Part shown: positions 5,036 through 21,777 of the stretch, piece after piece
How the letters are laid out: every line of letters starts with the position of its first letter
Numbering within the stretch: position 1 is the stretch's first letter
Source: a virus
DNA length: 21,777 nucleotides
Direction: 5' to 3' (one strand)
IMG/VR virus record: IMGVR_UViG_3300050821_019806
Location: 1 to 21,777 of that record
Program-made: the position numbers and the translations under genes
The notes under the pieces: model-generated
Seen by the model: only the letters and a program-made list of their open reading frames with translations
Told to the model about the DNA's origin: nothing
Database searches by the model: none

Positions 5036-5683
5036 ATGGAAATAATACTGGGACTAATAGGCGCCAAAGGTGCTGGAAAATCAACGGCTTTTAAGTTGAT
5101 GGGTACCATTCTAGATGCCGAAGAGATAACTCTAGCGGGTAAATTGAAAGATACCTGCGCCTCCGTATTTAAGATACCGAGAAACCATTTCGAAGATCAT
5201 AAATTCAAGGAAAGAGATTTAAATGTTCCAGCGTATCTAAGTCCGGCAGCCCTGAATCTAATCTTTAAGGCATTCAACGCCACCCCAGATTTCGATAAGC
5301 ATGTTAGAAAGCACATCGGTAAAATACTATATACTCCCAGACAGATAGCCCAATACGTAGGGACTGAAGTACTGAGGGCCTATAATACAGACATCCACTG
5401 CTCCAACTCCACGAAGGGCAGCCCCAAAAAGATAGGTATTGTAACCGATATAAGATTTCCGGATGAACTCAAGTATTTTGCTGACAACTTTCCCAAGTTC
5501 TACCCGATATACATTAAAAATCTACAGGCAGAAATTCGAGCAAGTAAGGATACGCATTCATCTGAGGCTCATTTGAAGGATTTGGCTAAAAAGGCAGTCA
5601 AAACACTAGATAACGACACAACTATTAGAGAATTCGAAGATAAGATAAAAGCTTATTTAGAGGAAATATCTCATGAACTTTAA
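5036..5683 (+). CDS. Deoxynucleoside monophosphate kinase (T4 gp1-like)
   Basis: It phosphorylates dNMPs to dNDPs, feeding recovered or newly made nucleotides into phage DNA synthesis. The chosen start gives 215 aa beginning MEIILGLIG, so the P-loop GAKGAGKST (G9 to T17) follows the first beta strand as in P-loop kinases. Further family features are the helix segment TPRQIAQYVGTEVLR and the TDIRFPDE strand, which resembles the TDxRFPNE pattern of phage dNMP kinases. It sits directly behind the DNA polymerase, and its end overlaps the next gene by 11 bases, which suggests translational coupling. Substrate preference cannot be read from the sequence. Thymidylate kinase of the host type is less likely because of the TPRQ...GTEVLR and DIRFPDE signatures. 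Confidence 0.8.
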   Translation: MEIILGLIGAKGAGKSTAFKLMGTILDAEEITLAGKLKDTCASVFKIPRNHFEDHKFKERDLNVPAYLSPAALNLIFKAFNATPDFDKHVRKHIGKILYTPRQIAQYVGTEVLRAYNTDIHCSNSTKGSPKKIGIVTDIRFPDELKYFADNFPKFYPIYIKNLQAEIRASKDTHSSEAHLKDLAKKAVKTLDNDTTIREFEDKIKAYLEEISHEL

Positions 5684-5912
5684 TAACTTACTGCTAACAG
5701 ATACTGCGGGGAAAAAATCCACCACACTAACTGTATTCGTGTCGGGATCTTTGGTGGTACATGTCAAACTGCTGCTAGCAGGAATGGTGATAAACGGATA
5801 TGCCTTTTCAGCCTTTAGCGGTAGTGAGTACGCGGCCGCGATGGGAGCTTTAGGAGCAATCTACGTTCTTCGCAGAAGTACCGACCCCAATAATAAACCA
5901 TCTAACTCTTAA
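5673..5912 (+). CDS. Small two-segment membrane protein
   Basis: This is a 79-aa protein with two hydrophobic stretches, roughly residues 17-40 (TLTVFVSGSLVVHVKLLLAG and beyond) and 54-68 (YAAAMGALGAIYVL), ending in a polar tail after RR. The ATG overlaps the end of the dNMP kinase by 11 bases and is served by AGAGGAAA inside that gene. Size and topology would suit a holin or other small phage membrane protein. Its position among replication and recombination genes rather than beside an endolysin argues against assuming lysis. No endolysin is seen in the window. The function is unknown; only the membrane location is supported. Confidence 0.75.
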   Translation: MNFNNLLLTDTAGKKSTTLTVFVSGSLVVHVKLLLAGMVINGYAFSAFSGSEYAAAMGALGAIYVLRRSTDPNNKPSNS

Positions 5913-5923
5913 GAGGAGATAAT

Positions 5924-6715
5924 ATGAACTTTTTAGATGCAATCAAGACTTACTTTATACACATGATGTCCCTATTTACATTAGTGGCCGTTCTGGTTTT
6001 TGGCTACAAATTCCACGTAATGAGTGAAAAATTGGAGAATGAACAAGCTATTGCGACCCAGCGTTATAATGAGCTGATCAATACCCAAACACAATACGTA
6101 CAGCTGACAAAACAGGTAGCTCAATTGTCTACTGTTTACCAGGATCAAAAGGCTTTGAAAAATCAATTGGATAGTATTTGGAAAGCAGTAAAACTTAGCA
6201 AAACGGAACAAGTGAACTCCACCCAAACTACTTCAGTAAACTTAGCCAAAATTAAGACAAATCAGTCAAAATCAGACTTTGTTTTCTTAGCACCTAAGGG
6301 TGAAAATACTGGGTATACCCTCAATGAACTCAGGATCGCAGGAAAAGATTCCCCAGCACTAGGTTCCATCCTAGTTAATGACAATGGCTCTGTAGAGAAA
6401 ACTAATTACAACCTAACATTCAAACTAGAGTCTGTACAAATCACAGATGAAAAAACAGGAAAAGTAAGAGTTATTTCCCAGGCTTATCTGGTTCCTCAGG
6501 AAAACGGATTGGCTGACACGCAGCCTGAACTTAAAAAATGGGCGGGAGTTGAATACCCCCTCCCAGTTACTGGAGGTCAAATTGAAGTAGACCCCAAACA
6601 AAATATAGTAACTGTCAGCCCCCCCGAAAACTACATTAAAGACGCTTTACTTATAGGCGGGGGTGTGTTAGGATTCATTATATTCAAGAATCCGATGCTC
6701 CTTAAATTTTGGTAA
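5924..6715 (+). CDS. Membrane protein with coiled coil and C-terminal hydrophobic anchor, function unknown
   Basis: This 263-aa protein has a hydrophobic segment near residues 12-28 (MMSLFTLVAVLVFGYKF). A Gln/Leu-rich stretch of about 32-75 follows that looks like a coiled coil, then a beta-rich, presumably extracytoplasmic region of about 95-235. A second hydrophobic segment lies at 240-254 (ALLIGGGVLGFIIF) and the protein ends KFW. The ATG is preceded by AAGAGGAGAT. An N-terminal membrane segment plus coiled coil recalls inner-membrane spanins, but the second membrane segment and the long beta-rich middle do not fit that family. I do not recognise it. It is followed ten bases later by the UvsY-like gene, and the preceding neighbour is also a membrane protein. 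Confidence 0.72.
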   Translation: MNFLDAIKTYFIHMMSLFTLVAVLVFGYKFHVMSEKLENEQAIATQRYNELINTQTQYVQLTKQVAQLSTVYQDQKALKNQLDSIWKAVKLSKTEQVNSTQTTSVNLAKIKTNQSKSDFVFLAPKGENTGYTLNELRIAGKDSPALGSILVNDNGSVEKTNYNLTFKLESVQITDEKTGKVRVISQAYLVPQENGLADTQPELKKWAGVEYPLPVTGGQIEVDPKQNIVTVSPPENYIKDALLIGGGVLGFIIFKNPMLLKFW

Positions 6716-17324: not shown

Positions 17325-17359
17325 TTAAGAGTGACAACACTCTTTTATTTTTTCCGGGG
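17311..17359 (+). promoter_or_regulatory. Possible Shine-Dalgarno-sequestering stem for ClpP-like A
   Basis: CCCCG (17311-17315) is complementary to CGGGG (17355-17359), which contains the ribosome-binding site of the ClpP-like A gene (GGGG seven bases before GTG 17367). The pair would enclose the terminator hairpin. Five GC pairs closing a structured loop is plausible but not proven. Confidence 0.35.
17327..17353 (+). terminator. Rho-independent terminator after the portal gene
   Basis: AAGAGTG (17327-17333) and CACTCTT (17338-17344) form a perfect 7-bp stem with a 4-base ACAA loop, followed by the T-run TTATTTTTT (17345-17353). It is the clearest terminator in the window and separates the terminase-portal transcript from the protease and chaperone genes. 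Confidence 0.75.
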
Positions 17360-17366
17360 TTCAGTC

Positions 17367-18032
17367 GTGGCAGATACTAAATTTTTACAATTAGACAATA
17401 ATTCAGAAACAATCTGGATATATGACTTCACTGAAGAAGTGGCAACCGATTTCCATGAAAAAGTCCTAGCCAAATTCGAAGATAATCCCCACAAGCCCAT
17501 AACTATTAATATAAATTCCTTCGGCGGAGAAGTCACCTCACTTCTTGCCATGCTAGATACAATGGATTACATTCGGGGCATAGCTCCCGAAGATTTCTAT
17601 TTCATCACTGTAGCCAAAGGCAAAGCTATTTCCGCCGGCGCAATGATGCTCTCCTATGGCGACTTCAGATTCGCCGAACCCAAGTCTCAAATAATGATCC
17701 ATCAGGTAGTTGGAGGAGTTTTCGGAAGTCATCCAGAAAATGAGTCGGAATTCCAAGAGATTGACCGAATGAATCAACTGCTCTTGTCTTTATTACAAAA
17801 AAGATGTAAATTAAACACAACGATGAAAGAGTTAAAAGAGCTACTGGCTCATAATTTATACTTAACTCCTCAAGAAGCTAAAACATTTGGATTAGTAGAC
17901 ATTGTTGGATATCCTAAAGTAGTGGAATTCAAAGCCTATGAACTCCAAGTAGTAAATGAAGAAGTAGCAACAAAGGGATCAAAAAGTGCTGATCGAAGAA
18001 CAAATAAAAAGTCTACTTCGCGTAAAAGCTAA
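17367..18032 (+). CDS. ClpP-like serine protease A (probable head maturation protease)
   Basis: This cytoplasmic ClpP-fold serine peptidase stands directly behind the portal, where phages encode the prohead protease. The triad is visible: S89 in KAISAGAM, H112 in MIHQVVGG, and D178 in GLVDIVG. NSFGGE (52-57 region) is the ClpP oxyanion/GG strand motif. The start is taken as GTG 17367 with GGGG seven bases upstream, giving 221 aa. An earlier in-frame GTG at 17331 lies inside the terminator hairpin and would add an unlikely LFYFFRG leader, although a leaderless transcript could use it. The C-terminus is a basic Ser/Lys/Arg tail overlapping the next gene by 47 bases. A host-like ClpP is excluded by divergence and context. 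Confidence 0.88.
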   Translation: MADTKFLQLDNNSETIWIYDFTEEVATDFHEKVLAKFEDNPHKPITININSFGGEVTSLLAMLDTMDYIRGIAPEDFYFITVAKGKAISAGAMMLSYGDFRFAEPKSQIMIHQVVGGVFGSHPENESEFQEIDRMNQLLLSLLQKRCKLNTTMKELKELLAHNLYLTPQEAKTFGLVDIVGYPKVVEFKAYELQVVNEEVATKGSKSADRRTNKKSTSRKS

Positions 18033-18496: not shown

Positions 18497-19084
18497 ATGC
18501 CAAAGAAAAAAGAATTATCATCACCACACGCATCATCCTCTTTCGCTCAATTGGTATCCAAAGCCCAATTAGAAGCGCTCAAGCCATATATCGAACAAGT
18601 GGCTGATCAAAAAATGGCAGAGTTGGCAAATAAGATCATTTCTACCTTGTATCAAGTAGTAATGAACAATCAAGCTCAAACTCAAATTCGTCAACTGGCC
18701 TTCGAAAAGTTGTTGAAGGAACATACCAAGTGGTTGACTGACGATGCCCTGGCGATGGCAACAGCTGATATCGAAGATGGAGCCCTGGGATTGGAGTCAA
18801 TTAAAACTCCAGCCGCAGAAGGTGATAAAGTCCGAGTAGAAGTTAAATATTCTACGCAACCTGAAGCAGCTCCCGAAAAGGTTCTTATCAATGCCCTGCT
18901 GCAAACCAGTCCTCAAGGACAAGTACAAACGCTTTTGGAAGTAGAGCAAGCTTTGGTAGGATTGGCGGTAGGTGAATCCACAACAGTAACTCTACCAAGC
19001 CAAGTGCCCGGAGTAGACGGAACAGCAGAACAAACCTCCGTGGAAATTACAGTTAAGAGAGTTTCTCGCAAAAAAGGAAGCTAA
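18497..19084 (+). CDS. Protein with helical N-terminus and possible FKBP-like C-terminal domain
   Basis: In this 195-aa protein, residues 15-92 are helical (a Gln/Leu-rich region). Residues 108-192 look like a shortened FKBP/SlyD/trigger-factor prolyl-isomerase module. It opens GDKVRVEVKYS, has the helix and turn LEVEQALVGLAVGESTTVTLP (compare the LeeALxGlkxGe...vxlP pattern of that family), and ends with a strand VEITVKRV. Several aromatic active-site residues typical of FKBPs are not evident, so isomerase activity may be lost. It sits between the Sm/SH3-like protein and the GroES-like gene. A folding or head-assembly helper is a reasonable inference. The domain call rests on pattern only and needs a profile search or structure. 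Confidence 0.5.
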   Translation: MPKKKELSSPHASSSFAQLVSKAQLEALKPYIEQVADQKMAELANKIISTLYQVVMNNQAQTQIRQLAFEKLLKEHTKWLTDDALAMATADIEDGALGLESIKTPAAEGDKVRVEVKYSTQPEAAPEKVLINALLQTSPQGQVQTLLEVEQALVGLAVGESTTVTLPSQVPGVDGTAEQTSVEITVKRVSRKKGS

Positions 19085-19085
19085 T

Positions 19086-19340
19086 ATGTTGCGATTACAA
19101 CCAGTCAATGACTTTATTTATGTAGAACTTAACGATAAAATCAGAAAAAAGACTGGAGATTCCCCCTTTACTACTATTATTACTAGTAATAACGAGGGAA
19201 CAGTCAAGTACTCGAGTTCTGAACAATTCCCAGTAGGATCTGTGATCCGCTTCGGTGGGGACCATCAGAGAGAGAATGTAGATGGTGCAGATTTATTAGT
19301 TATGAGTATTTCTAATATACGGGCTAAAGTTTTGGAATAA
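19086..19340 (+). CDS. GroES-like co-chaperonin (T4 gp31 / Cpn10 analogue)
   Basis: This 84-aa protein matches the Cpn10 layout. The N-terminal strand LRLQPVNDFIYVEL corresponds to GroES 'IRPLHDRVIVK'. A flexible charged segment of about 17-37 with a hydrophobic patch FTTII would be the mobile loop that docks on GroEL. EGTVKY is followed by VGSVIRFGG (50-58), equal to the VGDIVIF strand. The end DGADLLVMSISNIRAKV (67-82) equals the 'LIMSESDILAIV' end strand. Phage versions let host GroEL fold large capsid proteins. The roof loop is shorter than in GroES. The gene follows the FKBP-like gene by one base (AGGAAG before ATG) and precedes ClpP-like B by four bases. Confidence 0.72.
   Translation: MLRLQPVNDFIYVELNDKIRKKTGDSPFTTIITSNNEGTVKYSSSEQFPVGSVIRFGGDHQRENVDGADLLVMSISNIRAKVLE
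19177..19192. repeat. 16-bp perfect palindrome inside the GroES-like gene
   Basis: TTATTACTAGTAATAA is a perfect inverted repeat lying in codons for the hydrophobic part of the presumed mobile loop. It may be chance from the codon run ATT ATT ACT AGT AAT AAC. Confidence 0.35.
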
Positions 19341-19344
19341 TTCC

Positions 19345-19917
19345 ATGATAATTAAAGATGACGAAAAAGATACGGAGCGCTTAGGCCTCCATCTAATGCA
19401 TGTTTTTGAAAAGAACGTCAATTTCAAAGAACGGGTCATTTTAATAAATGGGGAAATCGAAGAGCAAGTATTTTCTCTTTTGGACGCCGCTCTAACTGAA
19501 ATGGAAAGTCACAATAGACAGGCCGTAACCATTCGTATTTCTTCGGATGGCGGCGGAGTCTACGATGCCTTGGCTATTGTGGGACGGCTTAAAAGATCCA
19601 AGTGTAAGATCGTAACCGAAGGATACGGCTGTATTATGTCGGCTGCCACATTGATCTTAGCTTGTGGAGATGAACGCCTCATATCCAAGTATGCTTGCTT
19701 CATGCATCACGAAGCTTCATATGCCCTAGAAGGACGACACTCTCAAATCGTAGCTGAAGTCCAGCAAAGGCAGAAAGAGGAAGAATTGTGGGCTCAATGG
19801 ATGGCTGAGTTCTCCAAGAAAAGTAAGAAGTTCTATTTAGAAGAAGCCAAGTTCACGGATAAGTATTGGAATCCACAAGAAATCCTCGATTTTGGAATTG
19901 TTGATAAGATCATATGA
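19345..19917 (+). CDS. ClpP-like serine protease B
   Basis: This is a second cytoplasmic ClpP-fold peptidase, 190 aa, with the triad S99 (GCIMSAAT), H121 (CFMHHEAS) and D187 (FGIVDKI). SSDGGG (66-71 region) is the GG strand motif. The Ser-His and His-Asp spacings (22 and 66 residues) nearly equal those of protease A (23 and 66), so they look like paralogues of one fold. It is 190 aa against about 193-207 for host ClpP, with no obvious propeptide. It might form its own ring, mixed rings with A, or be specialised for another substrate. ATG 19345 follows TTGGAATAA. Its stop overlaps the Cas4-like gene start by ATGA, so these two are translationally coupled. Confidence 0.85.
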   Translation: MIIKDDEKDTERLGLHLMHVFEKNVNFKERVILINGEIEEQVFSLLDAALTEMESHNRQAVTIRISSDGGGVYDALAIVGRLKRSKCKIVTEGYGCIMSAATLILACGDERLISKYACFMHHEASYALEGRHSQIVAEVQQRQKEEELWAQWMAEFSKKSKKFYLEEAKFTDKYWNPQEILDFGIVDKII

Positions 19918-20738
19918 ATCTAGAAAAACTAAAATCCTTCGTATCTTCAGATCTTTACCGAGCTAAGGATCCTTTAGTTTCTAGAATCAACAAACACTTA
20001 GTTAAAGAATACAACCCGCCAGCAAGTACCAGCTCGAGGCCTAGCCACAGCCCGTCTTCCATCGGAACCAAGTGCTATAGGAAGATTTATTACCAATTCT
20101 TCAAGTTAGATAAAGATATCCCAGTAGATGCTCGAGGAGCTAAGATATTCGAATCTGGCAAACAGCATGAAGAAATGGTAATGACATGGCTTAAGGCTTT
20201 GGGAGAACACATCCCTTATACAGACCCGGAATCTGGGCTAGTGCCTATGGACAGGGATGGAGTGACCCCCAATCCACAATTCCCCATCAAATCCCCTGAA
20301 TGGAGAATTAATAAGGGATTTATAGATAATGTAGGAATAATAGACGGAAAACTCTGGTTGTATGAGATAAAATCCTCTAATTCTAACAAGTTTCAGTCCT
20401 TAGAGGCAGTAATGCCGGAACACAAAGATCAGGTATCCATCTATTTAAAGACTTTCAATGAGCTTTTAAAGGCGGGGGAATTCAGTCATATCCCAGAATT
20501 GAAGCCTTTCGAAGAAGTAGTAGGAGTTAAGGTACTTTACATCAATAAAGATAACTCCGATATCAAGGTATTCTCACTAAGAAAAAATCATCTGCAAGCT
20601 AACATCTGGAAACTAAAAAGTAAAATAGAGCGGGCAAACAAATACATAGATGAAAAGCAACTACCGCCTAAGACCCCAGATAAATGCGAATATTGCCCAT
20701 TTAAGACTAAATGTAGCAAGAGCTTCAATGTCGTTTGA
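19914..20738 (+). CDS. Cas4-like PD-(D/E)XK nuclease with Fe-S cluster cysteines
   Basis: This 274-aa RecB-family exonuclease-like protein has all nuclease and cluster elements visible. C54 (GTKCYRK) and C258, C261, C267 (CEYCPFKTKC) form a four-cysteine 4Fe-4S site as in Cas4/AddB. D138 (GFIDNV), E151 and K153 (YEIKSS) are the PD-ExK catalytic residues, and Q173-Y177 (DQVSIYL) is the QxxxY motif. No CRISPR array or cas1/cas2 lies nearby, so a role in resecting ends for recombination or packaging is more likely than spacer acquisition. It is coupled to ClpP-like B, and its stop codon lies inside the -35 box of the next promoter. Confidence 0.85.
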   Translation: MNLEKLKSFVSSDLYRAKDPLVSRINKHLVKEYNPPASTSSRPSHSPSSIGTKCYRKIYYQFFKLDKDIPVDARGAKIFESGKQHEEMVMTWLKALGEHIPYTDPESGLVPMDRDGVTPNPQFPIKSPEWRINKGFIDNVGIIDGKLWLYEIKSSNSNKFQSLEAVMPEHKDQVSIYLKTFNELLKAGEFSHIPELKPFEEVVGVKVLYINKDNSDIKVFSLRKNHLQANIWKLKSKIERANKYIDEKQLPPKTPDKCEYCPFKTKCSKSFNVV

Positions 20739-20763
20739 CAACTGGCCACGTGGCTGATATACT
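20735..20763 (+). promoter_or_regulatory. Near-consensus sigma70 promoter of the exported ClpP-like protease
   Basis: TTGACA (20735-20740), a 17-base spacer and TATACT (20758-20763) match the consensus at 6/6 and 5/6 with ideal spacing. Initiation near 20770 leaves a leader of about 38 bases before ATG 20808, with AAAGAGGGT as ribosome-binding site. The Cas4-like stop codon TGA (20736-20738) lies within the -35 box. Confidence 0.85.
20745..20754. promoter_or_regulatory. Operator-like palindrome in the promoter spacer
   Basis: GCCACGTGGC is a perfect 10-bp palindrome centred in the spacer of the promoter at 20735-20763. A second dyad, TACTC-n6-GAGTA (20760-20775), covers the -10 and the predicted start. 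Either could bind a dimeric repressor; neither has been matched to a known site. Confidence 0.4.
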
Positions 20764-20807
20764 CCCTAAAGAGTAGAAATACTAATACCAAATAAAGAGG
20801 GTAAAAC

Positions 20808-21777
20808 ATGTTAAAAGCAATCGAAAAAATCAGCAAAGCACTAGTCCTCGGTGGACTCTTGGTAGGAGGTGCCGCGCTTGTTGCAGCTGCACCAGCACCC
20901 CAAGCACCAGCACCCGTTGTGGTATCAACCGCTCCCACAAAGGCACCCACATCTAAGGATCAAGTGGTATTGACGAAATATAACGTAATCGTCATGAATG
21001 ATGTTTTCACACCAGAAAGCACAATGAAAGTAGCCTTGGCTGCTCAAAAGATCGATGAACAATTGCCACCCGGCGAAACAATTTATTTGGTTCTCTCTAC
21101 CCCAGGTGGAGATGTTGATGCCGGTACAGAGTTGATCCGCAACTTGAATAACCTCCAACACAAAGTCAGCACAATCACCTTGTTCGCAGCCTCTATGGGA
21201 TTCCATACCGTAGAAGGTCTTGGTGAACGCCTTATTACTACAGACGGAGTGTTGATGGCTCATCGTGCAAAGGGTGGCTTTCAAGGTGAATTTCCGGGAC
21301 AATTGGATTCTCGCCTCCGTTTGGCTGAACACGCTACACGTACTTTGGATGAGCATGCAATTTCCCGTACAGGTGGAAAGTTAACATACGAAAGCTTCCG
21401 CAAATTGATCGATAATGAATTGTGGATGCAAGGACAAGAAGCTGTAGACCTCGGATTGGCTGACCGCGTAGTAGGAGCCACATGTGATGCGTCCTTAGAC
21501 GGAACTACATCAGAAGCCGTTACACTCCATTTCATGGGTATGAGCATCGAATTGAATGTAGTGCGAGCAAATTGCCCACTGATCACCGGAGTATTGGTTA
21601 GCACTGTAGGAATCAACGGCAAAAATGTAGATCCGTCGAATTTAGCATCTATTGCGGCTGCAGTAGGCAATCCAAACATCCCAACTGACGTACTTGTAAG
21701 TCTACAAAAGAAAATCCAAGAAACCGTCCAATCAGTAACTGGAAGTTCCAATGTCCTCCGTCAAGAAGCACTCGCCA
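20808..21777 (+). CDS. Exported ClpP-like serine protease C (partial, 3' end outside window)
   Basis: This is a third ClpP-fold peptidase; 323 residues are visible. The N-terminus is MLKAIEKISKALVLGGLLVG, followed by GAALVAAAPAP. That is a basic n-region, a hydrophobic core and Ala-rich residues fitting a Sec signal peptide or a membrane anchor, then an Ala/Pro-rich linker (about 29-48). The triad is S129 (FAASMGF, the classical ASMG), H152 (LMAHRAKGG) and D219 (GLADRVV). STPGGDVDAG gives the GG strand motif. The His-Asp spacing (67) matches paralogues A and B. An extra C-terminal region of unknown fold begins near residue 230 and continues off the edge. ATG 20808 has AAAGAGGGT upstream. Location outside the cytoplasmic membrane is inferred. 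Confidence 0.85.
   Translation, partial: MLKAIEKISKALVLGGLLVGGAALVAAAPAPQAPAPVVVSTAPTKAPTSKDQVVLTKYNVIVMNDVFTPESTMKVALAAQKIDEQLPPGETIYLVLSTPGGDVDAGTELIRNLNNLQHKVSTITLFAASMGFHTVEGLGERLITTDGVLMAHRAKGGFQGEFPGQLDSRLRLAEHATRTLDEHAISRTGGKLTYESFRKLIDNELWMQGQEAVDLGLADRVVGATCDASLDGTTSEAVTLHFMGMSIELNVVRANCPLITGVLVSTVGINGKNVDPSNLASIAAAVGNPNIPTDVLVSLQKKIQETVQSVTGSSNVLRQEALA

Follow-up and report, generated by a model that had tools for sequence, protein, structure and literature searches.

Gene C, which lies at the end of the window (the whole stretch of viral DNA analysed here, a virus record of 21,777 bases), probably encodes an exported serine peptidase of the ClpP fold, stabilised by disulfides and independent of AAA+ partners, that would act in the host periplasm during infection. 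ClpP is the textbook example of a cytosolic protease fed by an ATPase, and an exported, phage-restricted clade of such proteins would demonstrate that this fold can be relocated to an ATP-free compartment. Such a clade raises the question of what feeds an exported ClpP and what it destroys, and C is a candidate factor in the takeover of the host envelope. While automatic annotation would call C a "head maturation protease", its gene neighbourhood argues against that name.

Gene C and its predicted parts

Gene C is a real gene. Its reading frame starts at the ATG at 20808, opens in translation with MLKAIEKISKALVLGGLLVGGAALVAAAPAPQAPAP, continues into the ClpP core downstream and runs open to the end of the contig (Table 1). 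The 3' end, which the earlier note wished to see completed, was supplied by the IMG/VR contig L002, whose overlap with the last 136 bases is about 98% identical; it adds one more codon and a stop, and the protein of this close relative ends in ...EALAN at 324 aa. The N-terminal sequence, MLKAIEKISK-ALVLGGLLVGGAALVAAA-PAPQAPAP, carries a basic n-region (K3, K7 and K10, with one Glu), an uncharged stretch of 18 residues (A11-A28) with an Ala cleavage zone, and an Ala/Pro linker thereafter; the best cleavage sites are those after A26 or A27, because Pro follows A28. This layout, together with a ClpP core bearing the ASMG serine, had been described in the earlier note and can indeed be seen in the sequence, PF00574 matching the core at E 1.5e-15 and AASMG standing at residues 127-131.

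Table 1. Coordinates in the window of gene C, its predicted parts and its upstream neighbours
Feature	Position	Strand	Basis or remark
ClpP-like paralog B, without export signal	19345..19917	+	neighbour, outside the exported family; conserved in group I phages
Cas4-type exonuclease	19914..20738	+	conserved neighbour in group I loci
Sigma-70-type promoter TTGACA-17-TATACT, extended -10 (TG)	20735..20763	+	11/12, the region's best; overlaps the stop of the upstream nuclease gene
Ribosome-binding site GAGGG	20797..20801	+	sequence; similar AGAGGGTAAA context ahead of the L003 homolog
Gene C, predicted exported ClpP-like peptidase	20808..21777	+	323 codons shown; with the codon and stop added by L002, 324 aa
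Predicted export signal, residues 1-27	20808..20888	+	sequence; cleavage probably after A26 or A27; conserved in 60/63 members and 8/8 of the hold-out
Ala/Pro-rich disordered linker, residues 28-51	20889..20960	+	AlphaFold pLDDT 48-65 over residues 1-50
ClpP (S14) core, residues 52-225	20961..21482	+	PF00574; ClpP structures, VIA Z 22.8 (model residues 54-225); pLDDT mostly >90
Predicted catalytic Ser129	21192..21194	+	63/63
Predicted catalytic His152	21261..21263	+	63/63
Glu204, at the position of E. coli ClpP Asp171 (catalytic Asp)	21417..21419	+	61 Glu, 2 Asp (acidic in 63/63)
C-terminal beta-meander/helix domain, residues 226-323	21483..21776	+	Cys226 opens the domain, Cys256 lies inside; no PDB match found
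Cys226, invariant, predicted disulfide partner of Cys256	21483..21485	+	family alignment
Cys256, invariant, followed by invariant Pro257	21573..21575	+	family alignment

The AlphaFold model of the single chain reaches a mean pLDDT of 88, with high values over residues 51-311 and disorder over residues 1-50. The core is matched to the ClpP fold by Foldseek (E 1.5e-14) and by VIA (168 aligned residues, rmsd 2.4; Table 1), and on the canonical clpP equivalog of NCBIfam, TIGR00493, C scores 41 bits, below the cut-off of 308.6. Beyond the core, residues 226-311 are modelled as a confident beta-meander/helix domain; searched alone, this C-terminal domain gave no PDB match below E 0.1, an absence that is not proof of a new fold.

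Across the 63-member clade described below, the predicted Ser-His-acid triad is intact, the acid usually being Glu, and the oxyanion glycines are conserved. It is very unlikely that C is a catalytically dead binding protein that has merely kept the ClpP fold. Although 61 of the 63 members have Glu in place of Asp as the third triad residue, conservation of the Ser, the His, the acid and the oxyanion loop extends across a median identity of 36%, whereas a loss of catalysis would predict drift, and this counts against a dead enzyme.

In cytosolic ClpP, ClpX or ClpA gates the pore through the N-terminal axial segment. The core of C begins at Leu55, which aligns with Leu24 of E. coli ClpP, and in the clade the median distance from the end of the signal to this position is 10 residues, the minimum 4; in the C of the window, a low-complexity Ala/Pro linker stands where ClpP has its axial segment. 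The alignment indicates that the export signal usually replaces most of that segment. Given the missing segment and a periplasm that holds no ATP, we infer that C acts independently of AAA+ partners.

A predicted export signal across a phage clade

As far as searched, the clade to which C belongs is restricted to phages, and none of Pfam, PHROGs and NCBIfam has a separate name for it. IMG/VR was scanned with a pattern taken from an alignment of C and its homolog on contig L003 (47% identical to C), which yielded 69 loci, and removal of fragments left a clade alignment of C and 62 homologs (61 distinct; length 247-345; median pairwise identity 36%). In a maximum-likelihood tree, whose comparison rows were 19 ClpP-like paralogs of the same phages, E. 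coli ClpP and seven named-phage or plasmid sequences, the rows with predicted export signals fall on one side of a branch with 100/100 support. No record among 50,697 of named phages covers 80% of C, only ordinary ClpP-like proteins occur among the plasmid matches listed, and a literature search for exported or periplasmic phage ClpP found nothing.

Phages with a C-family gene reach sizes of about 100-170 kb, and the short signal peptides together with Rz-like genes suggest a two-membrane host. Among 84,980 GTDB species genomes, relatives were found in one MAG alone, at two loci, both on short phage fragments. As a possible host lead, C-family phage fragments (L080, L081 and L082) are binned in a bog Deltaproteobacteria MAG, PLEQ01 (G002). 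The 43 genomes of the order of PLEQ01 and the 58 of its phylum gave no other match to the motif FAASMGF[QHI]; as this motif alone was used, FSASMGF-type members in GTDB genomes would be missed.

The family scan relied on a motif in the catalytic core and so placed no constraint on the N-terminus. Signals were recognised across the family by a simple hydrophobicity and charge rule: a 12-residue core with a mean hydropathy of at least 2 and no charge, and a net positive start. The N-termini of 60 of the 63 clade members (C and its 62 IMG/VR homologs) follow this rule, against 39 of 1223 (3.2%) other ORFs of at least 80 aa at the same loci and, as a negative control, 0 of 20 cytosolic ClpP paralogs of these loci. 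Two of the three exceptions still resemble export signals, L011 carrying a lipobox (LASC) and L055 falling narrowly under the hydropathy limit. Further, the signal sequences vary between phages in the manner of real signal peptides. A hold-out set, assembled through a scan with the portal protein, added 8 members with F[SN]SM-type variants, which had escaped the core motif; all 8, judged by eye, have a hydrophobic N-terminal export signal.

The cysteines add a second line of evidence. While the Cys226/Cys256 pair is present in 63 of 63 members, a second pair occurs in 19 (shifted by one column in two of these), both cysteines of a third pair are found in exactly the same 6 members (6/6), and 60 of the 63 mature proteins have exactly 2 or 4 cysteines. 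Such co-occurring pairs point to disulfides, cysteines gained in pairs being what disulfides, and with them an oxidising compartment, would leave in an alignment.

Taken together, the signal conserved in a diverse clade, the paralog control, the hold-out set and the paired cysteines make export of the gene C protein, via a Sec-type signal or signal-anchor, well supported by comparison, and the proposal of export in the earlier note has gained from each of them. Several members of group I (see below) have no clean cleavage site, and for that reason some of them may stay anchored.

Gene neighbourhoods and candidate roles in infection

Three recurrent gene arrangements surround C. In group I, which includes the window, the order is ClpP-B, Cas4-type nuclease, C, a small gene, S78-like protease, scaffold and capsid. 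Group II (about 28 loci) has a helicase, an SbcD-type gene, two small genes, C, a zinc-ribbon gene and an SbcC-type gene, and in group III (about 10-18 loci) C lies amid dUTPase or HNH genes. The gene immediately ahead of C in some group III loci encodes a membrane metallopeptidase or a small holin-like two-TM protein, and an exported coiled-coil or Rz-like protein often follows it (weak hits).

Several further genes around C deserve mention. The window phage has three S14-type genes (A, B and C), of which the ClpP-like paralog A (17331-18032) has no export signal, is very divergent and was not seen in L003. On L003, a 109-kb phage contig, an NRAMP-type metal transporter (18556-19836; PF01566, E 1.2e-47) lies two genes after the C homolog. 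A GroEL-like chaperonin is encoded upstream of the recombination operon of C at L011:3156-4922 (minus), L062:2307-4073 (minus) and 11 other group II loci (by eye, cluster 25). The exported coiled-coil protein of cluster 34 (L036:10755-11180, L007:8218-8634 and relatives), which recurs just after C in group III, has a C-terminal TM segment, two cysteines in most members and no confident family. A membrane-anchored HExxH metallopeptidase, PF18894/M48-like below cut-off, is found at L039:9477-9953, L051:4093-4575 and L002:4299-4775 (minus); directly before C in two phages, it would be a second envelope-directed protease. In the window itself, a small two-TM holin-like gene (5673-5912) and a gene with terminal hydrophobic segments and a weak Rz-like match (5924-6715; E 0.044) resemble the neighbours of C in group III.

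The earlier note had set C apart from the head genes, a claim that the map does not bear out. A portal gene lies upstream of C, and in L002 C is followed by a small gene, an S78-like prohead protease (PF04586, 20.7 bits against a cut-off of 21), a scaffold-like gene and a putative major capsid gene (called on an SU10_MCP match below cut-off), the protease, scaffold and capsid genes lying within 2-3 kb downstream of C both there and in several relatives. These surroundings bring up the possibility that C is itself the head maturation protease, its hydrophobic N-terminus being a pro-sequence or a scaffold-binding segment, as would fit its place between portal and capsid in group I, a codon use like that of the capsid gene, and PHROG best matches that are head maturation proteases for 39 of the 39 members scanned. 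However, L002 and the group I relatives have the separate S78-like gene by scaffold and capsid, in about 28 relatives C is flanked by SbcD- and SbcC-type genes, in others it neighbours membrane-protein genes, and a signal with paired cysteines would be senseless in a cytoplasmic prohead. Such a role is highly improbable; with a separate S78-like protease near the capsid and the C of most relatives outside the head module, C is probably not the head protease. Judged by gene order, it is a stable gene of these phages (carried by 9 of 12 contigs longer than 45 kb with a closely related portal) that is not tied to head assembly, given the about 28 loci in a recombination operon and the about 10-18 beside membrane-protein or other non-head genes.

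The strong promoter of its own that had been ascribed to C was found again in the window's lineage, where the sigma-70-type site listed in Table 1 has a counterpart, TTGACA-17-TAGACT, at the equivalent position in L003 and L005, and the region overall has no excess of such sites. As a family trait the promoter is not supported, a strong site occurring in 9 of 66 cases against a background of 6%. The Arg codons of C are CGY in 10 of 11 cases and never AGR, as in the L002 capsid gene (17 of 18 CGY, 0 AGR); most other genes of the window use many AGR codons, the portal excepted (20 CGY to 7 AGR). Family-wide, codon adaptation is modest (mean rank at the 30th percentile within loci). Promoter and codon adaptation together suggest that large amounts of C may be made in the window's lineage.

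What an exported C would do is less firmly indicated. Its likeliest use, put forward tentatively, would be the clearing or remodelling of host envelope proteins in infection, such as receptors or entry factors of competing phages. In one form of this explanation, C would serve superinfection exclusion, destroying receptors or injection cofactors once a first phage is inside the cell. This is possible, in keeping with the predicted periplasmic location and intact active site, the strong sigma-70 promoter in the window's lineage and the early/middle-type neighbours in group II, although no paper on such a system was found. The anti-phage defence models of PADLOC-DB matched 0 of 39 members at E 0.001.

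Alternatively, C might help or time lysis by cleaving, in the periplasm, a lysis protein, an antiholin or a tether of the outer membrane. In several group III loci the genes flanking C are small holin-like two-TM genes, an Rz-like gene (phrog_1152, E 0.0026), or genes for a membrane metallopeptidase or the exported coiled-coil protein. A cleavable signal peptide also has a precedent among phage lysis regulators in T4 RI (PMC8385771). However, the lysis labels are weak matches or were assigned by eye, and the neighbours of C in groups I and II are head or recombination genes rather than lysis genes; a part in lysis seems unlikely. A comparably unlikely role would be quality control of the phage's own exported or membrane proteins, or of the envelope stress that results from them. 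The C loci do encode other exported or membrane proteins, among them a small exported protein (cl54) one or two genes upstream of C at some group II loci, and ClpP-fold proteases prefer unfolded chains, but the periplasm has no ATP-driven unfoldase.

For the favoured use on host envelope proteins, the following course can be envisaged. Protein C would cross the inner membrane of a two-membrane host, its signal would be cut off, or kept as an anchor in some relatives, and its disulfides would form after export. Going by their fold, the subunits may then join through the ClpP handle to form a ring or barrel, which would cut envelope proteins that are unfolded or exposed; as the periplasm contains no ATP, it would do so without any. 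The more specific proposal, that an uncultured phage clade places a self-assembling, ATP-independent ClpP barrel in the host periplasm, with a new C-terminal domain selecting the envelope substrates, is conceivable yet doubtful. If true, the barrel would be a ClpP-type chamber degrading proteins beyond the cytosol, and the host envelope would be taken over in a way so far undescribed.

Relation to known systems

With cytosolic ClpP (MEROPS S14; E. coli, Thermus), the C clade shares the core fold (VIA Z about 22), the catalytic Ser and His, the oxyanion GG and the handle-helix region. It differs in its predicted export signal, in Glu for Asp in the triad, in the extra C-terminal domain and in the paired cysteines; moreover, the axial N-terminal segment is absent in many members, and an AAA+ partner would not be expected in the periplasm. 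The ClpP-type head maturation proteases of phages (PHROG 94; NF045542) give the best profile matches and likewise have the fold without a dedicated ATPase. However, C scores 50.8 bits on NF045542 against a cut-off of 120, is predicted to be exported and, in group I, stands beside a separate S78-like gene.

SppA (S49) and NfeD/1510-N are similar in having a ClpP-like fold that acts at or outside the inner membrane. Unlike these, which are marked by a Ser-Lys dyad, C keeps a putative Ser-His-acid triad and is nearest to S14. Identity with an SppA/NfeD membrane protease was considered and rejected, the profiles being below their cut-offs (SppA_dom a weak match in 2 of 39 members, NfeD1b_N far below) and His152 invariant; the C-terminal membrane domain of this kind, looked for downstream at the suggestion of the earlier note, does not occur in the completed 324-aa protein. 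Among predicted viral structures, the second-best match to C is the Clp/TepA-like protein A0A7D3V576 of the giant virus Fadolivirus (222 columns, rmsd 2.2), which differs in being only 25% identical and from a eukaryotic virus. Finally, the T4 antiholin RI is a phage protein with a cleavable signal peptide that is released into the periplasm (PMC8385771); C would resemble it in the signal peptide, whereas RI is not a protease and its fold is unrelated.
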